Source: Myxococcota bacterium (GTDB lineage Bacteria > Myxococcota_A > UBA796). Taken from it: a stretch of 64,000 nucleotides of DNA. The translations under genes were made by a program, and so were the position numbers. Within the stretch, counting starts at the first letter, position 1; each line of letters opens with the position of its first letter. The DNA lies in NCBI GenBank assembly GCA_029251165.1, contig JAQXDW010000151.1, forward strand, positions 248,001 to 312,000. Reading direction: 5' to 3'. The notes under the pieces were generated by a model. The model was not told where the DNA came from, made no database searches, and was given only the letters and a program-made list of their open reading frames with translations. This document shows positions 1,873-59,472 of the stretch, in pieces.

Positions 1873-2943
1873 ATGCCTTCCTACGCCTCCCCTGCTGTTC
1901 TCGCCTGCACCCTCCTGATGGGCTGCTCTGCTTCGCTCAACCGGTTCACCGTCAAGAAGGTGATCCCGGCCATGATGCAGGATGCTGACCTGGACATGGC
2001 CTGCCACTTCGGCAACACCATCACCTCCGGCGTCGGCGCTTCCCTCCCACGGAAGCCGGCTAAGAAGGCACTCATCCTCAGCAGCGGTGCCGCTGGAATC
2101 TGCGCAGAGATGGAGGCACGCGAGGCCAAGCTGGCGGGTCAGATCATCCTCGCCAACCACGCCAGCCTCGGCTCGGCAATGGCCGCTGAGGCCACCGACG
2201 CCCGGATCCGGGCCCAGCGCCTCTACGCGCGCGCTGCCAGCCGCTACTACAGGGCCTGGCTCAACGCCGTGGACGTCTACGGCACCGAGTGCCCGAGGAT
2301 GTCCGAGGACGAGCAAGCCCTGTTCCTGTTTGGCCTCGTCGCTGGAGATCTCGCGGTCATCACCGATGCCGCTGGCGGAACCGCCGTCGGTGTCCCGCAG
2401 AGCACCATCCTCGATGTCGCGCGCGCCGCCGAGTGCCTGGACTCCGATGCCTGGTGGGGGGTGCCCGATGCGCTCAAGGCCAGCGCCTGGGCCACCGTGC
2501 CCGGCTCCGGCCCCGAGGACGTCGATCCCTGGGCGCTGTTTGAGACCGCCACCGCGCGCGGAGACGCCGACGGCGTGCGCATCGCCCGCTCCCTCCAGGT
2601 GTTCACCGCCGCCAACGCCGGCCGCACAGACATCGTCGAGGCCGGGCTCGCCGCCCATGGTGCCGCACAGTCTGAAGGCGGCGACCCAGCCTGGCTGCTG
2701 CTGGACACCTACGCCTTCTCCGTCAGCCTGTTTGAGTCCGACCAGCTCTGGATTGCAACCAATGGTCACCGGACCATGACCTTCGGGACGACTCCGGGAG
2801 CCTCAAGTGTCGGAGGAGAGGACCCGTTCGGCGGCAGCGATCCGTTCGGCGGCAGCGACCCATTCGGCGGCGATGACCCCTTCGCAGAACCGAATTCCCC
2901 ACAAGACGAGGCGCCCGAGGGTGCCCCTGGAGACCATCAGTAA
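1873..2943 (+). CDS. TatT-like lipoprotein, T component of a TRAP transporter, with C-terminal DPFGG repeats
   Basis: A 356-residue lipoprotein; the signal peptide ends at LLMGC. The body is alpha-helical and Ala-rich, as in TatT proteins (trimeric TPR-like lipoproteins first described in Treponema pallidum as partners of a TRAP substrate-binding protein). Family features seen are the MMQDADLDMA segment just after the lipobox, the helical LYARAASRYYRAWL segment and the downstream TRAP genes. The last 45 residues are not typical: DPFGG occurs three times, then DPFAE, ending in an acidic Pro-rich tail. I chose ATG 1873 because it gives a proper lipobox and sits behind a -10 element. The stop overlaps the next start (TAATG), so the two genes are translationally coupled. 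Confidence 0.82.
   Translation: MPSYASPAVLACTLLMGCSASLNRFTVKKVIPAMMQDADLDMACHFGNTITSGVGASLPRKPAKKALILSSGAAGICAEMEAREAKLAGQIILANHASLGSAMAAEATDARIRAQRLYARAASRYYRAWLNAVDVYGTECPRMSEDEQALFLFGLVAGDLAVITDAAGGTAVGVPQSTILDVARAAECLDSDAWWGVPDALKASAWATVPGSGPEDVDPWALFETATARGDADGVRIARSLQVFTAANAGRTDIVEAGLAAHGAAQSEGGDPAWLLLDTYAFSVSLFESDQLWIATNGHRTMTFGTTPGASSVGGEDPFGGSDPFGGSDPFGGDDPFAEPNSPQDEAPEGAPGDHQ
2815..2886 (+). repeat. DPFGG-encoding tandem repeat in the TatT-like gene
   Basis: Four tandem copies of a unit encoding roughly (S/E/D)DPFGG. The codons differ slightly between copies, with alternating gat/gac and ccg/cca. The same peptide unit recurs in the permease gene of this operon at 4246-4452. Confidence 0.8.
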
Positions 2944-3929
2944 TGCCTGCATTCTTCACCGGACTTCTCCTCGCCGCAGCCTCCTCCACCGCGCAGGCGC
3001 AGACCCTCTGTGTCTACGATCCAGCAGGGAGGACGGGCTTTGTGTTCGACTGGATGGAGTCCTACAAGCTCAACGCAGCCGGCCAAGGCGTGACCCTGGA
3101 GCTGAAGCCCTACACGGACGAAGAGACCGCGGTGAACGACTTCACTGCGGGCAAGTGTGACGGCGTGGCGGCGACCGGTGTGCGGCTCCAGAAGTTCAAC
3201 CGCTCGGCCTACACGCTCGAGGCGCTCTCCGGGATCCCCAACTACACCATGCTCAAGAGCGTGCTGAACACCGTGCAGACCAACGCGCGGTATGCCTCGA
3301 TGTTCACCTCCGGCAGCTACGAGACCGCCGGGGTCTACCCACTCGGCGCGGTCTATGCCTTCGTGCGGGATCGGGAGATCAACGACATCACCGACTTCGC
3401 CGGCAAGCGCATCGCGGCGATGGAGTACGACGCCACCTCCCTGCTCGTCGTCGAGCGCATCGGCGGCGTGGCGGTCCCAGTCAACCTCTCCTCCGTCTCC
3501 GGCGCGTTCAACAACGGCGACGTCGCCGCGACCTTCGTCCCCGCCTCCGCCTACACGCCGTTCGAGCTGTGGCATGGCCTGGAGAGCGGCGGCGCGGTGG
3601 TGAAGTACCCGCTGCTCCAGGTGACGATGCAGATCGTCATCAACCCCACAGCCTTCCCTGCAGGCTTTGGCACCAGCTCTCGCACCTTCGTCGCCAGCCA
3701 GTTCGACGTCGCCATGCAGACCGTCAACAAGGCCGAGGGTGAGATCAAGTCGAGCTACTGGTCGACCATGGAGGCCAGCCAGATCGAAGAGTTCGAGCGC
3801 GCCATGCAGCGCCTCCGTCTTGAGCTTCGCGACAAGGGCAGCTACGACAGCGATGTCCTTCGCCTGCTCCGCCTCGCGCGCTGCAATGCCGACAGCTCTC
3901 GCTGGGAATGCGCCTCCCCGGTGGAGTAG
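2943..3929 (+). CDS. TRAP-type periplasmic solute-binding protein (TatP-like)
   Basis: A 328-residue secreted protein with a Sec signal peptide ending near AQAQ. It reads as a bilobed periplasmic binding protein: TLCVYDPAGRTGFVF at the mature N-terminus, GKCDGVAATGVRLQKFN, then the lobe-2 signature DFAGKRIAAMEYD. It lies between a TatT-like lipoprotein and a TRAP permease, as in tat(TP)-QM operons, so it should deliver an organic acid or hydrophobic ligand to the permease. It is divergent from classical DctP and resembles the putative solute-binding proteins annotated next to TatT. Its ATG overlaps the stop codon of the preceding gene by one base. The ligand cannot be predicted. Confidence 0.8.
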   Translation: MPAFFTGLLLAAASSTAQAQTLCVYDPAGRTGFVFDWMESYKLNAAGQGVTLELKPYTDEETAVNDFTAGKCDGVAATGVRLQKFNRSAYTLEALSGIPNYTMLKSVLNTVQTNARYASMFTSGSYETAGVYPLGAVYAFVRDREINDITDFAGKRIAAMEYDATSLLVVERIGGVAVPVNLSSVSGAFNNGDVAATFVPASAYTPFELWHGLESGGAVVKYPLLQVTMQIVINPTAFPAGFGTSSRTFVASQFDVAMQTVNKAEGEIKSSYWSTMEASQIEEFERAMQRLRLELRDKGSYDSDVLRLLRLARCNADSSRWECASPVE

Positions 3930-3981
3930 CGCATCCGGCCTCTGGTACGGTGTCCTGAATCCCCCCTGAGAGGCCGCCGCA

Positions 3982-6204
3982 GTGTCAGCCGAACACGCTC
4001 GCCCGTTCCTCAGCCGGCTGATCACGCCGGCTGTCCTGATAGTGCTCGGCGGTCTGCTGATGCTGGAGACCGCCGACAAGGTCGATGCCCGGCTGGTCAG
4101 CCTCGGTGATCGCGTGTGGCCGGGCTACGCCCTCGAGCTGCGCCGCGATCCCCAGCCGCCGCTGTGCGTGCTGGAAGAGGCCGAGCAGAAGAAGGCGACC
4201 TGTGTGGCGATCGCACCGCAGCCGGCAGCCCCTCCTGGTGACAGCGACGATCCATTTGGCGGCGGTGACAACCCGTTCGGAGAGGCTCCGAGCGAGGACC
4301 CATTTGGCGGCGGCGACAACCCCTTCGGCGACGCTCCCCCGGCAGGAGACGCCGATCCGTTCGGCGGCAGCGGAGACAACCCCTTCGGCGACGGCGGCGA
4401 GGATCCGTTCGGCGGCGAGGACGACAACCCCTTCGGCGACGGCGATCCGTTCGCTGCGCCCGCTGCCGCCCCCGATGCGATCAGCTGTGAGCAGGCCGAG
4501 GCGCTGCTGAGCCGCTGCAGCATGGAGCATGCGGAGTACACCGCCGATCTGGAGACGATCACCCCCAGCATCAAGGCCTACCGGGCCGTCGAATTGTTCT
4601 TCGCCAGCCTCGCCCGGTTCCCCTACCGAAAGCATCTGCTGTCGTTCGTGCTGCTGCTGGGCGGCCTCCAGGTCACTGTGCTGCGGGCGCACATCAAGCT
4701 GCGCCGTCCGATCACCCGGCTGGAGCACACCGTCAGCCAGGGCGCGCAGCTCCTCGCTCATCTCCTGCTTGCCTTCTCCGCGTTCGCCAACTGGCGGGTG
4801 CAGGCCGGCCTGACCATTGAGTCCGACAACGCCGCGCTGCCGGTGATCTGGGCGACCGGGTTCACGCTGCTGGCCCTCATCAACATCAGCAACATCCTCC
4901 GTCCGCCCGACGGCACCACGACCGGCGGAGGCATCGGACGGGCGCTCCTGTGCATCCCGCTGTACGCCTTCATGGCGATTGCATCGGGAGCCTACTTCCT
5001 GCTCGGCGAGGGCCACACCTCCGGCCAGGCGATCTACATCCACAAGTTCGCCCAGTTCCCCACGATCTACCTCGCGGTCGCGCTGTACGTCTGGTCGGGC
5101 ATGCTGCTGGAGCGGTCCGCCATCGCCATGCGGGTGTTCGACGTGCTGCGCCCCTGGGGCCTGCCGCCGATGATCCTCGGCTGGCTGGTGGTCGTGCTCG
5201 CTGCGATCCCCACCGCCTACTCCGGGGCCTCCGGCATCTTCGTCATCGCGGCTGGTGCGGTGATCTTCGAGGAGCTTCGCCGAGCCGGCAGCAGCAAGCA
5301 GGACGCGGTCATGTTCACCGCGATGTCCGGCAGCCTCGGGGTCGTGCTGCGGCCCTGTCTGGTGGTGGTGCTGATCGCAGCGCTGAACAACGAGGTCACC
5401 ACCGATCAGCTGTTCGAGAAGGGCTTCCTCGTCTTTGGGCTGACCGCGCTGATCTTCCTGGTCGCGGTGATCCTGCTGAACAAGGACCGCTACCAGGTCC
5501 GCGCGCTGTCCGAGGCCCTGCCCGAGTCTGGCGCGGCGATGCGGACGGTGGTCCCCTACCTGCTGATCGGTGGGGGCGTGCTGGTGGGCTACTGGCTGCT
5601 GCTGGACACCACCCTCAACGAGCGCACCGCGCCGGTCATCCTGCCGCTGATGCTCCTGGCGATGCTCGCCTATGAGTTCAAGACCGGTCGCTCTCGCTTC
5701 AAGGGCAAGATCGGGCCGAACATCATGCGGGCGACCAGCGAGTCTGCCGAGCACATGGGGGCGCTGATGTTCCTGATGTGCGCCAGCGTCTGCCTCGGCG
5801 GCGTCATCGAGCGCATGGAGGTCATGGAGCTGGTGCCCCACAGCTTCGGCTCGCCGACCATCACCATGGCGGTCCTGGTGGTGACGATGGTCATCGTCGG
5901 CATGACCATGGACGCCATGGGCGCTGTCATCCTCGTCTCCATCACCGTCGCGCAGGTCGCCTACCGCAACGGCATCGACCCGGTGCACTTCTGGATGATG
6001 GTCTTGGTCGCCTTTGAGCTTGGCTACCTCACACCGCCCGTCTCGCTCAACCACCTCCTCGCCCGTCAGGTCATCGGCGCGGACGCGGAGCTGGAGAACG
6101 AGAACATCGCCGGCTTCTGGGGTCGATACCGACACATCCTCGTCCCGATGCTTGTCATGGGCGTCGCGCTCCTGATTGTTGCCTTCGTTCCGTTGATGTT
6201 TTGA
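3982..6204 (+). CDS. TRAP transporter fused small/large permease (DctQM-like) with DPFGG-repeat periplasmic insertion
   Basis: A 740-residue membrane protein started by GTG at 3982, preceded by a GAGAGG-type ribosome site. The N-terminal part has one membrane helix (about residues 14-28), then a hydrophilic insertion (residues about 88-160) rich in DPFGG and DNPFG units with flanking Cys residues, then further helices of the DctQ-like portion. From about residue 350 it is a DctM-like large permease with many hydrophobic helices, including YSGASGIFVIAAG, MTMDAMGAVILVS and LGYLTPPVSLN (the last typical of DctM). It should import the ligand held by the binding protein, driven by an ion gradient. 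The repeated insertion is not a usual part of the family and matches the tail of the TatT-like protein. Confidence 0.87.
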   Translation: MSAEHARPFLSRLITPAVLIVLGGLLMLETADKVDARLVSLGDRVWPGYALELRRDPQPPLCVLEEAEQKKATCVAIAPQPAAPPGDSDDPFGGGDNPFGEAPSEDPFGGGDNPFGDAPPAGDADPFGGSGDNPFGDGGEDPFGGEDDNPFGDGDPFAAPAAAPDAISCEQAEALLSRCSMEHAEYTADLETITPSIKAYRAVELFFASLARFPYRKHLLSFVLLLGGLQVTVLRAHIKLRRPITRLEHTVSQGAQLLAHLLLAFSAFANWRVQAGLTIESDNAALPVIWATGFTLLALINISNILRPPDGTTTGGGIGRALLCIPLYAFMAIASGAYFLLGEGHTSGQAIYIHKFAQFPTIYLAVALYVWSGMLLERSAIAMRVFDVLRPWGLPPMILGWLVVVLAAIPTAYSGASGIFVIAAGAVIFEELRRAGSSKQDAVMFTAMSGSLGVVLRPCLVVVLIAALNNEVTTDQLFEKGFLVFGLTALIFLVAVILLNKDRYQVRALSEALPESGAAMRTVVPYLLIGGGVLVGYWLLLDTTLNERTAPVILPLMLLAMLAYEFKTGRSRFKGKIGPNIMRATSESAEHMGALMFLMCASVCLGGVIERMEVMELVPHSFGSPTITMAVLVVTMVIVGMTMDAMGAVILVSITVAQVAYRNGIDPVHFWMMVLVAFELGYLTPPVSLNHLLARQVIGADAELENENIAGFWGRYRHILVPMLVMGVALLIVAFVPLMF
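4246..4452 (+). repeat. DPFGG/DNPFG-encoding repeat array in the TRAP permease
   Basis: About eight alternating units, (D/E)DPFGG and DNPFG(E/D), separated by short Ala/Pro/Glu spacers. At DNA level the units (gatccgttcggcgg, gacaaccccttcggcga) recur with third-position changes. Confidence 0.8.
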
Positions 6205-6252
6205 GTCTCTGGTGGTCGACTGGTTGAGTCAGGGTCGGACGGACGCATGCGC

Positions 6253-6264: not shown

Positions 6265-6804
6265 ATGCGAACCTCCTTTCTCCTGATGCTCTCCGCTGCC
6301 TGCGATGACAAAGACACCTCCGGTATTGACGCCGAGGCCGATGCGGACACCGATGCGGACACCGATGCCGACACCGATGCCGACACCGACACCGACACCG
6401 ACACCGATGCCGACACCGACACCGATGCCGACACCGACGCGGACATGTTCCTTGGCGGTGGCTGGGGCTGTGCGGGCGGCGAGGGTGACTTTGAGGCCTG
6501 GACCAGCGGCGAATCTGGCACCGTGACCCTGGAGATCGTCCGCGTCGAAGATGCGTACTACGAGCTGCATGACCGCATGCTGTCGATCGACTGGGACGGC
6601 ACCCAGCAGACCTGGAGCCTCCAGCTGGCGGTCGCCGCGTCAGAGTCCGATCAGATCCCCAACGTCAGCTCCATGTTCACCTGCGATGGTGCCTGGGCGA
6701 GCACCTGGGCCGCTCGGATGATGGTCTTCAGCGACACCACCGCCACCGACTGCATGCTGTTTGGAGCAGACACCAGCGTCCTGGCAGACCCGCTCTGCAA
6801 GTAG
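6265..6804 (+). CDS. Lipoprotein with (DADT)n linker, unknown function
   Basis: A 179-residue predicted lipoprotein. The signal peptide MRTSFLLMLSAAC ends in a lipobox-like SAAC, then comes a repeated Asp-Ala-Asp-Thr linker of about 36 residues, then a compact domain of about 110 residues with several Trp residues and Cys pairs. An in-frame ATG at 6247 would add six residues, but it lies upstream of the -10 element, so 6265 is preferred. No family was recognised in the C-terminal domain. The linker would hold that domain away from the membrane. It follows the TRAP operon by 60 bases but has its own promoter. Confidence 0.7.
   Translation: MRTSFLLMLSAACDDKDTSGIDAEADADTDADTDADTDADTDTDTDTDADTDTDADTDADMFLGGGWGCAGGEGDFEAWTSGESGTVTLEIVRVEDAYYELHDRMLSIDWDGTQQTWSLQLAVAASESDQIPNVSSMFTCDGAWASTWAARMMVFSDTTATDCMLFGADTSVLADPLCK
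6337..6444 (+). repeat. Asp/Thr codon repeat encoding a DADTD linker
   Basis: Tandem units of the type gcggacaccgat / gccgacaccgac (12 bases, four codons). Similar arrays are found at 9191-9267 and 59090-59194 in otherwise unrelated lipoprotein genes. Confidence 0.85.
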
Positions 6805-9109: not shown

Positions 9110-9682
9110 ATGCGCACCACTATCCTCCTGCTGCTCGCCGTCGGCTGCGGCGACAACGATGCCCCTGACTCTGCCACCCCACCCGCCGAGGCCGACGCCG
9201 ACACCGACGCCGACACCGACGCCGACTCGGATGCCGACACCGACGCCGACACCGACGCCGATGCCGACATGCCCGACGATCCGCGGCCGTTCACCATCAC
9301 CGTCTCCGGGGAGTACACCGGCACGCTGAGCTTCGACGAGGTCTCGTGTAGCAACCCGCTGGGCTCGTCAAACTTCAGCATCTTCTGGCGAGACTCCTCC
9401 GACAGTCACTTCTTCGTGCTCGTCGGCCAGATGCTCGGCACGCTCGACGGCACTGGCACCTACGACGCCTCGGCGGTCACCGTGAAGCTCCAGGAAGAGG
9501 CCGGCGGCAACGGAAACTACTTTGCCTCCAGCGCCAGCGACACCGTCAGCTTCACCATCGATCACATCGACGAGCAGAACGAAGACGTGCGCACAGCCTG
9601 GGGGAGCTACACCGTCAGCGGACTCAGCGGCGCGGTGTCGTTCTCCGAGGCGGTCCCGATCTGGTGCCCGAGCATCAACTGA
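9110..9682 (+). CDS. Lipoprotein with (DADT)n linker, unknown function
   Basis: A 190-residue lipoprotein; the signal peptide is MRTTILLLLAVGC (Cys13). An acidic DADTD repeat linker (about residues 28-53) leads into a domain of about 135 residues that looks beta-rich (FTITVSGEYTGTLSFDEVSC, YDASAVTVKLQEEAG, VSFTIDHID). Its signal and linker resemble those of the gene at 6265, but the C-terminal domains differ clearly. The function is unknown. It converges with the acyltransferase gene, with a strong hairpin between them. Confidence 0.78.
   Translation: MRTTILLLLAVGCGDNDAPDSATPPAEADADTDADTDADSDADTDADTDADADMPDDPRPFTITVSGEYTGTLSFDEVSCSNPLGSSNFSIFWRDSSDSHFFVLVGQMLGTLDGTGTYDASAVTVKLQEEAGGNGNYFASSASDTVSFTIDHIDEQNEDVRTAWGSYTVSGLSGAVSFSEAVPIWCPSIN
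9191..9267 (+). repeat. Asp/Thr codon repeat encoding a DADTD linker
   Basis: Tandem gccgacaccgac-type units of 12 bases, the second of three such arrays in the window. Confidence 0.85.
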
Positions 9683-22496: not shown

Positions 22497-24194
22497 ATGC
22501 TCTTCCTCTTCCTCACTGGCCTGCTTGCTGCGGCCGCGTTCGGGATTCTGGTCACCCGGATCTTCTACCCCCACCACCGGCGCATCGCCCTGGCGCTGTA
22601 CCTCGCGGGCTGGGTGCCGTTCCTCATCTCCATCAAGCAGCACCGGGACATGCTCAACCGCGCCGCCGAGCCGCTCCAGGGCATGCTCACAGGCTATGAG
22701 CTGCACGTTGTTCTGCTGATCGCGCTGTTCGTGGCCGGGTACCTCATCCGGACCCTCCTGCCCAGCACGGCCTCTCCCGCCGAGGAGCTCTCAGACGACG
22801 CGCTGTCCAACCTCTTGGATCAGGACCTCAGGCTGCTGCGCTATCTGCTGAGTCGGCTCGACGGAGCCCTCGATGCCCTGATCGGCAGCGGACTGCTGAA
22901 GCCGTCCACCGAGCCTCCCACCGCCGAGGACAACCGCGAGCTGAGGGATCTCTGGGCAGCCTATGTCGAGGCCAGCTTTGAGCTGGACGTGCTCAAGTAC
23001 CGCCACCGCAGCTTCCACCAGCTGGCCTGGAAGAGCCCCGCCCAGGCCGAGGCGTTCCTCATCTCCTATGGTGCCTTCGCGGTTCAGTACGGTGCAGAGC
23101 TGACCCTGACCCAGGCTGTGAGCACCAACGATCGGGTCAAGACCGTCCTCAACGAAGCGGACCCGACCTTTGACCTTCCCGCCGACTGCTATGCAGCCAT
23201 CCAGTTGCGGCTGCTGCACCCGGACACCGTCGTGCGCCTCAACGCCGGCCGCGCCTGGATCAAGGTCATCCGAACCGATCTCACCCGCCACGCGGCACTG
23301 CTCGACCGGGTGGAAGACGCCCTGCGCTCGGTCGATGTGGCGGTGAGTCGTGATCCGCTCAACGTGCTGCGCAACCCGATGCACTACCTGGAGAAGCGGG
23401 CATTCGATACCTGGTTTCCGGTCCAGAAAGAAGCCGCCGTTCAGGTCAGCTACGTCCGCGCAACCTCCCGGCGCTACTTCATCTCCCGGCAGACCGCTGC
23501 CGGCATCACCGAGCGCCTTCAGCCCGGCGACATCCTCTTCCAGCGCAGAGAGTGGCACCTCACCAACCTCGGAATCCCCGGCTACTGGACCCATGCCGCG
23601 CTGTACCTCGGCAGTCCAGCCGACCTGGAGGCGCACTTTGCCGGGCTGGCGGAGCTTCAGGGTGGCAGCGTGGCGGACTACCTCGCCGCCCGTCGCCCCG
23701 AGGCCTGGGCGGCGCTGCAGGAGGCCGACAGCGCGGGAGAGCCGCGCTCCGTCATCGAGGCGCTGCGGCCTGGTGTGGTGCTGCATTCGGTGGCCGAGAG
23801 CTGCAGCTGCGACTCCCTCGGCGTGCTGCGCCCCCGCATCTCCCGCGCCGACACGCTCGCTGCGGTGGTCGAGGCGCTGGCCCACCTCGGCAAACCCTAC
23901 GACTACAACTTCGACTTCACCTCCGACAACGCCCTGGTCTGCTCCGAGCTGATCTACAAGGCCTTCCACGCCTCACAGGACATCGTGCTGGAGCCGGAGG
24001 AGACCAACGGTCGGCTGCTGCTGTCCCCCAATCAAATGGCGATCAAGTTCGACAACGAGCTGGGCGGCGACACCGCGCAGCTCGACTTCGTGCTGTTCCT
24101 CGATGGCCGCGACATCGACGTGGTTGAGGAGAGAGACGCCACCGCGTTCCGCAGCGCATGGCAGCGGCCGAAGTGGCACATTCTGTTCACCTGA
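22497..24194 (+). CDS. YiiX/YebB-like permuted NlpC/P60 cysteine hydrolase with N-terminal membrane helices
   Basis: A 565-residue protein. Two or three N-terminal hydrophobic helices (about residues 1-22, 33-45 and 70-85) are followed by a helical domain of about 200 residues and a C-terminal hydrolase domain. In that domain, GDILFQRREWHLTNLG opens the fold, WTHAALYLG supplies the catalytic His, and ALVCSELIYKAF the catalytic Cys; the His-before-Cys order is that of the circularly permuted NlpC/P60 class. Members act on amide or ester bonds, including lipids or peptidoglycan peptides. The end overlaps the convergent protease gene by 8 bases. Confidence 0.82.
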   Translation: MLFLFLTGLLAAAAFGILVTRIFYPHHRRIALALYLAGWVPFLISIKQHRDMLNRAAEPLQGMLTGYELHVVLLIALFVAGYLIRTLLPSTASPAEELSDDALSNLLDQDLRLLRYLLSRLDGALDALIGSGLLKPSTEPPTAEDNRELRDLWAAYVEASFELDVLKYRHRSFHQLAWKSPAQAEAFLISYGAFAVQYGAELTLTQAVSTNDRVKTVLNEADPTFDLPADCYAAIQLRLLHPDTVVRLNAGRAWIKVIRTDLTRHAALLDRVEDALRSVDVAVSRDPLNVLRNPMHYLEKRAFDTWFPVQKEAAVQVSYVRATSRRYFISRQTAAGITERLQPGDILFQRREWHLTNLGIPGYWTHAALYLGSPADLEAHFAGLAELQGGSVADYLAARRPEAWAALQEADSAGEPRSVIEALRPGVVLHSVAESCSCDSLGVLRPRISRADTLAAVVEALAHLGKPYDYNFDFTSDNALVCSELIYKAFHASQDIVLEPEETNGRLLLSPNQMAIKFDNELGGDTAQLDFVLFLDGRDIDVVEERDATAFRSAWQRPKWHILFT

Positions 24195-27048
24195 CCCGAC
24201 GCCGGCGCCGCACAAGCAGCACGAGCAGCAGCAGCGGGCTGAACCCAGCGCGTGTGCTGCTGCTGCACCCACAGCCCTCCGGCTCTGCGACCGGGAGCGT
24301 GCCGGTGTCCGTGCCGGTGTCTTCCGGCTCCGCAGTGTCCACATCCGGCGAGATGCTGCCGATGTCGGCATTCTCGCCCTCGACCACGCCGTCGTACCAG
24401 TCCTCGTCGTCGGCACCGGCAGAGAACAGGACGTAGTAGAAGGACTCGCCCGGCTCAGCATCCGGATCAACGACCGCGCGGGCCTCGCCGGGTGTCGGAG
24501 TAAGATCGACATCGATGATCACGCCGTCGGTCGGCCCGGTCGGCCAGGCGCCGGCGCTGCGCACCAGCACGGTCGCGCTCAGCGGAGTGACCCACGGCTG
24601 GGTCCAGGTGACCGCGATCGGCCCCTCACCGTCGGTGGCATCGAGGTCCGACGTCCGGTAGTGGCCAGCGGCATCTGCCAGCTGCACCAGACAGACCTCA
24701 TCGAGCGCCCACCCGCCGTACTGGAGCCCGCCGTCGGCCTCCAGGGTCCAGGTGAGCTGGAGATCGCCGCTGGTGCCGTCGAGCGAGACGTCGTGGCGGG
24801 TCCAGTCGGTGTCGAGGAGGTGGGCATCGGTGCCGGATGTGGAGGCGGGGTTCTCCCACAGCACGTCCTCGCCTAGCCAGATGGTGGCGTGATCGTAGAA
24901 GCCGTCCTCCACCGTCAGAAACCGCCGGTAGGACAGCAGAAACATCGGCCCCGGTGCGCCGACCGTCCAGACCGGAGACTGGAGGTGAGAGGTGTTGTTG
25001 GCGGTGTACTCCCCGGCGAGATTGGTGCCCGCGATGGTGGTCCCTTCCCAGGCATCAGACGGGTTGTCGGGGGCACCAGACGGACTGCCAAAGACCCAGT
25101 CGTCGATCAGCGGATCCGTGCTCTTGGTCCACGGATCTCCCGGACCATGACTCCAACCCTTCGCGCCATCCTCGAAGCCCTCGCAGTACAGCGCCTCGCG
25201 ATCACCGACCCGGAAGCTGTACAGCGCGTCCTGCCGTCCGCCGTGGGTGGTGACCACCTCGCTGCCGTCGGTCGAGCTGGCCGAGAGGAAGTAGCGGACC
25301 TCTGCACCGGCCGGCTGGCGGGGGATCTCGCCGCTCCAGGTGAGCCCGTCGGTGGACAGCGCAGCAGCCTGCCAGTCGCCGTCCGTCAGGGTCGCCTCGG
25401 GATCCGTGGTGTACCAGAGGCCCACCGAGTCCGCATCGAACGCCGCGCAGGTGCTCGGCCAGGTGCTGACGTCGAATTCGACGGGGTACGACGCGGTCGC
25501 GGAGCCCTGGGCATCGAGGGGCTCATGGTCGAAGGTGAGCACTCCGATGCTTCCCGGTCCGATGCCGTGCTGGTTGAGCAGATCGATCAGCTCGCAGTCG
25601 TGGGGGGTGCCGTTGGTGGGGTCGCCGTCGTCGTCGTCTGCAAGCAGGACCGCCTCGGCGAGATCGGTCAGCGTCGGGCCCAGCTCCAGCGCACCGAGCA
25701 GGATGAGGTCCGCCATCTCCGCGCCGTCCGCTTCGCCGTAGGTGCCCTGCCACTGCTCGCGCAGGTTCCACAGGAAGCTCGCCCAGATGAGCCCGTCGCT
25801 GTGGACCTCTCCGACGATGTCGTCGGGGTAGACCTTGTCGGTCTCGATCTCGCGGATGAAGCCGCCGTCGAGCCGGGCGTTGGGGGCGAGGATCGGATCA
25901 TCGAGGATGGTCGCAGAGATGTAGTCCGCCGAGCCCTCGGAGACGTCCCCGGCGAAGGTCCCAGCGACCCGGATGTAGTCGTGAATGCCGTGGCCGACCT
26001 CGTGGTAGACCACATCGGCGATCTGACCGAAGTTGTTGCAGTTCTGAGGATTCCCCGGAAGGAACGTGATGGTCCCGCCGGTATAGTATGCGTTGCACGT
26101 ACCGTTCCGAGCCTCAACCGTGGCCGGAACCTGCTCGCTGAGCCATGGATGGTCCGGCCAGCGCAGCTTCAGCCAGTCCCAGACCACATGGAAGTGGTGC
26201 TGAACGGTGCCGGCAGACAGCGGCATGTCAACGCCCCCTTCGAGCAGGAGATCGCCGCTCCCCGCCTTGGTGACCGACTCGCCGCTGCCGGTCATCACGG
26301 AGAGCTCGGGTCCGCTGAGGACCACGGTGAGATCGCCGGTGAGGCTGTGCTGGCCGTCGGCGTCTGTGAGCGCAGTGACGCCGTCAGCATCCTCGACCGT
26401 GACGCTGCGCGCCGGACTCTCCACGACTTCATCCCCCACGGTGCGCTCTTCGTGGGAGACAAAGACCTCCGAGAACCGCCGGGTGTCGTAGCGGTAGACC
26501 TCACCGCCGTCTCGATCTCGGTAGACCACGTCGGGGCCATCGGTCTGCCGACGGGCCAGCCAGGGACGGCCCTCCTCATCGACAAACACGACCTCATCCG
26601 CGCGCGGCGCCTGAGACAACCGCACAGGGGTCAGCTGGACCCTCACACCAGCGATGCGGTCGCTCTGGACGATGACCAGGACCTCGTCTCCCTCAACAAC
26701 CACGCCGCGCCAGGTGCGGGTGTAGACCAAGAACTGCCGGTCGCCACGGGTGACCGCGTGGGAGAGGCTCAGCGCCTCATGGGGCACCCGGGCGAGCTCA
26801 GCGATGTCTCGGAGAACGGCCGGAAGCTGCGCGATCGGCGTGCCGGGGGCCAGCAGGAAGCGCGGGGTGTCGTTGCGGGGATTCCAGCGAACCACCCACG
26901 CACCCCAGGTCTCCTGAAACCGCCGCCAGTCCGTCTTCGCAGAGCGACGGGCCTGCGGGCCGGGACGCCGGTCGAGGTGGGGAGAAGGGGGGCCGAAGGG
27001 CACCGCATCTTCAGAGGGAGCGAACGCCATCAGGGCGAGGAAGAGCAT
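24187..27048 (-). CDS. Secreted zinc metalloprotease with MYXO-CTERM-like sorting tag
   Basis: A 953-residue exported protein. It has a short signal (MLFLALMAFA), a propeptide-like N-terminal region (to about residue 290), and a zincin domain with YHEVGHGIHDYI (HExxH) and, downstream, EGSADYISA, whose Glu is the likely third ligand; this is the gluzin arrangement seen in fungalysin-like enzymes. The CNAYYTGGTITFLPG segment is also typical. C-terminal to it are beta-sandwich modules (FEDGAKGWSHGPGDPW; the jelly-roll-like part near 700-790). The end reads GCGCSSSTRAG, then a hydrophobic stretch, then RRRRRVR, the MYXO-CTERM plan for anchoring or release of proteins in Myxococcota. A TGAGG ribosome site precedes the ATG. 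Confidence 0.9.
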   Translation of the reverse strand: MLFLALMAFAPSEDAVPFGPPSPHLDRRPGPQARRSAKTDWRRFQETWGAWVVRWNPRNDTPRFLLAPGTPIAQLPAVLRDIAELARVPHEALSLSHAVTRGDRQFLVYTRTWRGVVVEGDEVLVIVQSDRIAGVRVQLTPVRLSQAPRADEVVFVDEEGRPWLARRQTDGPDVVYRDRDGGEVYRYDTRRFSEVFVSHEERTVGDEVVESPARSVTVEDADGVTALTDADGQHSLTGDLTVVLSGPELSVMTGSGESVTKAGSGDLLLEGGVDMPLSAGTVQHHFHVVWDWLKLRWPDHPWLSEQVPATVEARNGTCNAYYTGGTITFLPGNPQNCNNFGQIADVVYHEVGHGIHDYIRVAGTFAGDVSEGSADYISATILDDPILAPNARLDGGFIREIETDKVYPDDIVGEVHSDGLIWASFLWNLREQWQGTYGEADGAEMADLILLGALELGPTLTDLAEAVLLADDDDGDPTNGTPHDCELIDLLNQHGIGPGSIGVLTFDHEPLDAQGSATASYPVEFDVSTWPSTCAAFDADSVGLWYTTDPEATLTDGDWQAAALSTDGLTWSGEIPRQPAGAEVRYFLSASSTDGSEVVTTHGGRQDALYSFRVGDREALYCEGFEDGAKGWSHGPGDPWTKSTDPLIDDWVFGSPSGAPDNPSDAWEGTTIAGTNLAGEYTANNTSHLQSPVWTVGAPGPMFLLSYRRFLTVEDGFYDHATIWLGEDVLWENPASTSGTDAHLLDTDWTRHDVSLDGTSGDLQLTWTLEADGGLQYGGWALDEVCLVQLADAAGHYRTSDLDATDGEGPIAVTWTQPWVTPLSATVLVRSAGAWPTGPTDGVIIDVDLTPTPGEARAVVDPDAEPGESFYYVLFSAGADDEDWYDGVVEGENADIGSISPDVDTAEPEDTGTDTGTLPVAEPEGCGCSSSTRAGFSPLLLLVLLVRRRRRVR

Positions 27049-59002: not shown

Positions 59003-59410
59003 ATGCTGAAGAACCTGATCGTGCTGCTGACATTCTCTGCAGCCCTGACGGCCTGTGATGGAAAAGACGACACTGGCTCTGCTGAAGAAGCGGACACCGA
59101 CACCGACGCAGACACCGACGCAGACACCGATGCGGACACCGATGCGGACACCGATGCGGACACCGATGCGGACACCGACGCAGACACCGACGCAGAAGGT
59201 GGCAAGATCTTCCAGGCGACCTGCGCGAACTGCCACGGTCCCAACGGAAACGACGGAAACGCGGCAGACCTGACCGCAGCGATTCCAGCCCTCACCGACG
59301 CGGTGCTGATCGATCTGATCGTGGAGGGCTCTGGCTACATGCCCCCTCAGGCCATCTCTAAGGATGAGATGCCCAGCCTCATCGGCTACCTGCGCGCCAC
59401 CTTTCCCTGA
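59003..59410 (+). CDS. Class I cytochrome c lipoprotein with (DADT)n linker
   Basis: A 135-residue lipoprotein (lipobox LTAC, Cys16). A linker of about 35 residues of repeated Asp-Ala-Asp-Thr separates the anchor from a mono-heme cytochrome c domain: heme motif CANCH with ATCANCHGPNG, and a likely axial Met in GSGYMPP. It should carry electrons at the envelope, its linker giving reach from the membrane. The domain is about 70 residues, the normal minimal size. The same kind of linker occurs in two unrelated lipoproteins in this window. Confidence 0.88.
   Translation: MLKNLIVLLTFSAALTACDGKDDTGSAEEADTDTDADTDADTDADTDADTDADTDADTDADTDAEGGKIFQATCANCHGPNGNDGNAADLTAAIPALTDAVLIDLIVEGSGYMPPQAISKDEMPSLIGYLRATFP
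59090..59194 (+). repeat. Asp/Thr codon repeat encoding a DADTD linker
   Basis: Tandem units of the type gcagacaccgac and gcggacaccgat (12 bases, four codons), the third of three such arrays. Confidence 0.85.
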
Positions 59411-59472
59411 GGGCGCTGGCCCCTGAAGGCGCTGGTCCCTGGGGGCGCTGGTCCCTGAGGGCGCTGGTCCCC
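59409..59472. repeat. Four tandem 16-base repeats at the 3' end of the cytochrome gene
   Basis: Units at 59409-59424, 59425-59440, 59441-59456 and 59457-59472 follow G(A/G)(G/A)GGCGCTGG(C/T)CCC(T/C) with 1-3 differences. The first unit begins inside the TGA stop codon. The repeat length of 16 is not a multiple of three, so it is not a coding repeat. Confidence 0.8.

Follow-up and report, generated by a model that had tools for sequence, protein, structure and literature searches.

The analysed window, a 64 kb stretch of DNA from a Myxococcota bacterium, contains an operon of three adjoining genes on the + strand that encode a lipoprotein (T), a solute-binding protein (P) and a fused permease (QM). 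The features of the locus are as follows, in window coordinates.

1873..2943, + strand: T component, a lipoprotein (open reading frame whose lipobox is LMGC, with the codon of the mature Cys at 1924)
2806..2940, + strand: tail of T, containing four DPF units that start at 2821, 2839, 2857 and 2875 (translation, pattern scan)
2943..3929, + strand: P, a solute-binding protein of the AdeT1_2/TRAP type (PF19582, E=5.7e-63)
3982..6204, + strand: fused QM permease, 740 aa (PF06808 DctM, E=8.6e-24)
4165..4167, + strand: Cys62 of QM, a residue conserved almost without exception in the family, at one base of the loop
4243..4470, + strand: QM loop between TM1 and TM2 of Q, with nine [DN]PF units (translation, pattern scan)
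4516..4518, + strand: Cys179 of QM, also nearly invariant, at the opposite base of the loop

The match of P to PF19582 reached 213.5 bits (cut-off 27) and that of QM to PF06808 DctM 84.5 bits (cut-off 23.8), while the TIGR00786 score of QM was under its cut-off. Pfam DctQ was unmatched in QM, and hydrophobic helices lie upstream of the DctM region. No Pfam or NCBIfam family matched T, and PDB profile searches with the T and P alignments returned zero matches. Upstream of the operon, at 794-1492, lies an open reading frame that contains VLDVGCGNGW, a motif resembling that of class I methyltransferases.

T comprises a helical body followed by a disordered acidic C-terminal tail, VGGEDPFGGSDPFGGSDPFGGDDPFAEP, whose translation bears out the three DPFGG units plus one DPFAE (2821-2886) that the original prediction had described at the end of the lipoprotein. 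The array that it had reported in a loop of the permease was also present, with nine units rather than about eight: four DPFGG, four DNPFG and one DPFAA (4249-4455), starting at 4249, 4270, 4297, 4318, 4354, 4378, 4402, 4426 and 4444. Based on the positive-inside rule and the topology of HiSiaQM, this TM1-TM2 loop is predicted to face the periplasm, and Cys62 and Cys179 may form a disulfide at its base. The motif-bearing T and QM genes flank the third gene, P (2943-3929), in which repeats are absent.

The repeats were strongly concentrated in these two genes. At the DNA level, the pattern RAYCCNTTYGS had 14 matches in the 64 kb, 13 of them within the T and QM genes, compared to an expectation of 1.34 from shuffled sequence and a maximum of four among 100 shuffles. 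Across the 8.0 Mb assembly, the DPFGG pattern was found at 13 sites, seven in T or QM and the other six isolated, several of these in frames of non-coding look. Arrays of at least four DPF units were seen only in T and QM in this genome. DPFA-type sites were dispersed, with one other notable cluster in a 1155-aa protein (L256, G000:C125:231500-236500), in which three DPF[AR] units occupy a disordered acidic linker; with no evident signal peptide, this protein is apparently cytoplasmic rather than exported. A genome-wide low-complexity habit was rejected because DPFGG arrays are confined to T and QM, the 1155-aa protein being a partial exception. Synonymous codons differ between the units of T and QM, which argues that the motif is kept at the protein level.

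Tandem repeats of the (GACACCGATGCC)-type also occur in the window (6338-6445, 9184-9268 and 59099-59196). At 6247 they code, in a small protein, for a DADTD linker that follows what may be a lipobox Cys. Unlike the DPFGG arms, the GACACCGATGCC-type repeats look like a linker typical of this genome's lipoproteins. A further tandem array at 59404-59471 consists of 4.2 copies of the 16-base unit TCCCTGAGGGCGCTGG.

With its additional lipoprotein, this TRAP transporter resembles TPAT in its organisation. The Treponema TPAT (TatT-TatP(T)-TatQM) has the same three-gene set of helical lipoprotein, TRAP binding protein and fused QM; T is here also a lipoprotein, judging by its lipobox, and is encoded with P and QM in most loci, and the modelled P homologue resembles TatP(T) of TPAT (3u65). 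However, the original description of T as TatT-like lacked sequence support. None of 51 T members (0/51) matched PF16811, the family of the TPAT T component, gammaproteobacterial T members were unmatched too, and comparison of T with the PF16811 TAtT profile gave an hhalign probability of 1.2%. TatT membership being negative by Pfam, NCBIfam and hhalign, T falls outside PF16811 by every sequence test used, and the name TatT should therefore not be transferred. With HiSiaPQM-like TRAP transporters the system has in common the DctM domain, a TRAP-type binding protein and a fused QM, and it differs from them in the extra lipoprotein and the motif-bearing Q1-Q2 loop. The excerpts of the TPAT literature consulted (PMC5812351, PMC10942540) make no mention of shared motif arms, and a search for literature on motifs common to a T lipoprotein and a TRAP permease found no paper.

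We assessed how the motifs of the two arms associate across the phylum. T relatives were found in 59 of the 379 phylum genomes searched (4 of the 59 marginal), and P and QM accompany T in most loci; in G012, T and P are on one contig and QM is on another. In one locus (L078, G036:C127:78000-89000), T and P share a single 717-codon frame without a stop, which is either a natural fusion or an assembly error. The matching set comprised the 49 phylum operons in which both the T tail and the QM loop were readable. In these, tail and loop were of the same motif class, a genuine DPF/LL mismatch was absent, and one case was doubtful (G188, in which the loop repeats EEEWDELQPES and a clear tail motif is absent). 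One clade carries DPF[GA] on T and QM, and the other operons carry acidic LL-type motifs (DDLLDGL, DLIGDLLG) on both. Individual pairs include tail GLFDGLDD with loop DDDLLAGLDD (G101), tail DEDLFGD with loop DDLFGD (G169), and tail DELLDGLFDEEE with loop DELLDDLFGEEE (G154); neither arm was present in G064. Regular expressions divided the operons into 19 DPF/DPF, 22 LL/LL, five LL/none, one none/none and two apparent mismatches. The apparent mismatches (G012, G210) were artefacts of allowing DAF, and the five 'none' loops (G026, G101, G125, G234, G280) contain LL-type motifs with a residue that the expression disallowed, both reclassifications having been made by eye and post hoc.

Similarity between a tail and its own loop (best ungapped 7-residue match) exceeded that of permuted pairings for all 49 operons (p<=5e-5), and did so within the 20 DPF operons (p=0.007) and the 29 non-DPF operons (p=2.5e-4); unit counts in tail and loop were correlated (rho 0.71, n=17, p=0.0015), the permutation and copy-number statistics alike leaving relatedness in. 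Motif presence, type and number go together between T and QM across relatives, the original prediction having proposed to test the co-variation of presence and number, and repeats were neither confined to one of the two subunits nor scattered at random among exported proteins. In the P tree, DPF operons form one clade (support 100/100), so the switch to DPF was a single event and type matching rests on few switches. The tree also supports the grouping of G012, G036b, G045b and G245, whose loops are of the DLIGDLLG type, as a subclade. Two genomes (G036 and G045) each hold one DPF/DPF operon and one LL/LL operon, both internally matched, which argues for a reader encoded in the operon. Residues flanking PF were constrained, with D or N before it in 171/174 units and G or A after it in 168/174, and spacers varied. 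Both arms were strongly acidic, the mean net charge being -9 for the T tail and -20 for the QM loop.

A wider scan of genome contigs with the permease alignment yielded Myxococcota and deltaproteobacterial MAGs and many Gammaproteobacteria, including Marinobacter, Oleispira, Oleiphilus, Thalassolituus, Alcanivorax and Agitococcus. In Gammaproteobacteria there is usually one motif copy per arm: T ends in ETMDLDDLL in Marinobacter, LDIDDLLED in Oleispira and VDLDDLF in Oleiphilus, and the loops hold a single motif (DDPMAALLG, DEWDLFDED, LGLDLFEAE). The resemblance between tail and loop is looser than in the phylum, and the loop is again flanked by cysteines. The matched arms are restricted to this T-P-QM system. 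The motif loop was absent from the paralogous TRAP permeases examined, which are not accompanied by the T lipoprotein, several of them near PF16811 TatT genes, including permeases of separate PF16811 systems in the same genomes, and a search with the loop recovered its own family and other weak matches (E 0.01-0.1). Apparent repeat matches in G035 were discarded as spurious GSDPGGG frames.

Two natural same-frame stretches covering T, P and the N-terminal part of QM (G033 and Oleispira L186) were modelled with AlphaFold, with stops read as Ser. In both models, T was all-helical at high confidence and P was a TRAP binding protein; in Foldseek searches with the fused models, the 50 matches listed were all binding proteins, with TM-scores of up to 0.76 by target length, and so left no place for matches to T. 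Within the arms of G033, several residues with a pLDDT of at least 50 coincide with DPF units, and other units fell below 50; the ordered residues were 300-302 of the tail and, in the loop, those around 776-787, 794-795, 812-817 and 821-822. In L186, the block with EWDLF (776-780) averaged a pLDDT of 65 and the tail-motif block about 50. The models predict only weak order at some motifs, which neither establishes docking nor rules it out.

Since distant relatives bear a motif that differs but again matches between lipoprotein and permease, it probably serves both subunits as a common handle for docking. Our tentative preference is for a reading in which the T tail and the QM loop share one docking motif for a common receptor, most likely P. 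The tail and the TM1-TM2 loop would then be flexible arms showing the same short linear motif to a single receptor, with P docking first on lipid-anchored T, where it would be loaded, and next on the QM loop, where it would be unloaded. Multiple motif copies would raise the local concentration and ease the hand-over, and a single groove that reads both arms would oblige the arms to change together. Comparison of DPF and LL operons bears on the identity of the reader. Type-specific columns in T were the motif's own only (PF versus LL), with none in the T body, compared to three type-switching positions in P (76 G/A, 85 Q/R, 209 F/L) and six type-specific positions in QM, which points to P or QM as the reader rather than the T body. 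These P and QM positions may also have arisen by chance on a single deep branch, and the near-cleft sites of P may reflect substrate. We favour P, with modest confidence, because it touches both T and QM in related systems: the T component in TatT-TatP(T) crystals, according to the review PMC5812351, and QM in the HiSiaP-QM model (PMC9352664), a study that also provides a precedent for a single-chain P-QM fusion. Counting against P as receptor is its slightly acidic mean charge in the DPF clade (-4.8). The wider proposal, which we consider possible but doubtful, is a TRAP class in Myxococcota and Gammaproteobacteria whose matched motifs on T and QM serve as successive docking points for a shuttling P, with motif and reader replaced together by lineages.

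The preferred reading bears on how loaded binding proteins find the permease and on how T components pass cargo across the periplasm. If true, it would be an unusual case in which a linear docking motif organises a bacterial periplasmic transport route. A mere analogy, with no homology claimed, is offered by the DPF/NPF motifs of eukaryotic endocytosis (AP2 appendage, EH domains), which are short repeats in disordered stretches and provide multivalent docking in a different compartment and with a different receptor. A matched motif on both partners can be tested by short peptides and point mutations, with Marinobacter as a culturable host of the system, and the existence of two motif classes, in some cases within a single genome, amounts to natural swap experiments.

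A direct zipper between the T tail and the QM loop across the periplasm, as originally proposed, would account for the same motif in both arms and for their correlated copy numbers. The sharing of the motif is real, but a third receptor fits better: the strong acidity of both arms and their frequent reduction to one copy make a zipper less likely, the T body has no position that switches with motif type, and the identical units have no obvious complementary face, leaving this explanation quite improbable. Binding of both arms to a further factor encoded elsewhere in the genome, for instance a chaperone or scaffold of the periplasm, would explain the shared motifs without T-QM contact and would suit G012, with its T+P and QM on separate contigs. 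However, one factor would need two specificities in G036 and G045, with their two matched classes, and we give this alternative a small chance.

It is unlikely, although the idea keeps some weight, that there is no shared reader, with acidic disordered linkers drifting alike and type matching reflecting common descent. Such drift is in keeping with the monophyly of DPF and with the three DPF[AR] units in the acidic linker of the 1155-aa, apparently cytoplasmic protein, but it is at odds with constrained PF flanks beside variable spacers, own-pair similarity within classes, the confinement of arrays of at least four units in the window genome to T and QM, and the retention of the motif in single-copy gammaproteobacterial arms. 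Homogenisation of the arrays by gene conversion, without selection, might be suggested by the 20 bases that form the longest DNA stretch common to the two window arms. Yet spacers and unit lengths differ between T and QM, and DNA shared within own pairs was barely longer than that shared between genomes (12.5 versus 11.1 bases for DPF, 9.6 versus 9.0 for LL), by which gene conversion is largely refuted and can be considered very improbable.

Classical TatT proteins were also observed in the course of the analysis. A second TRAP system of the genome that contains the window (L141; G000:C81:21088-21777 and 23844-25031) combines a genuine PF16811 TatT, with the C-terminus KDDLFAD, with a permease in which the motif loop is missing. 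Many PF16811 TatT C-termini (L236-L254) are acidic-aromatic (DDLF/DDYF/EELIFE), like the LL-type tail motif, and on the basis of these sequences classical TPATs possibly share the docking idea via their TatT C-termini.
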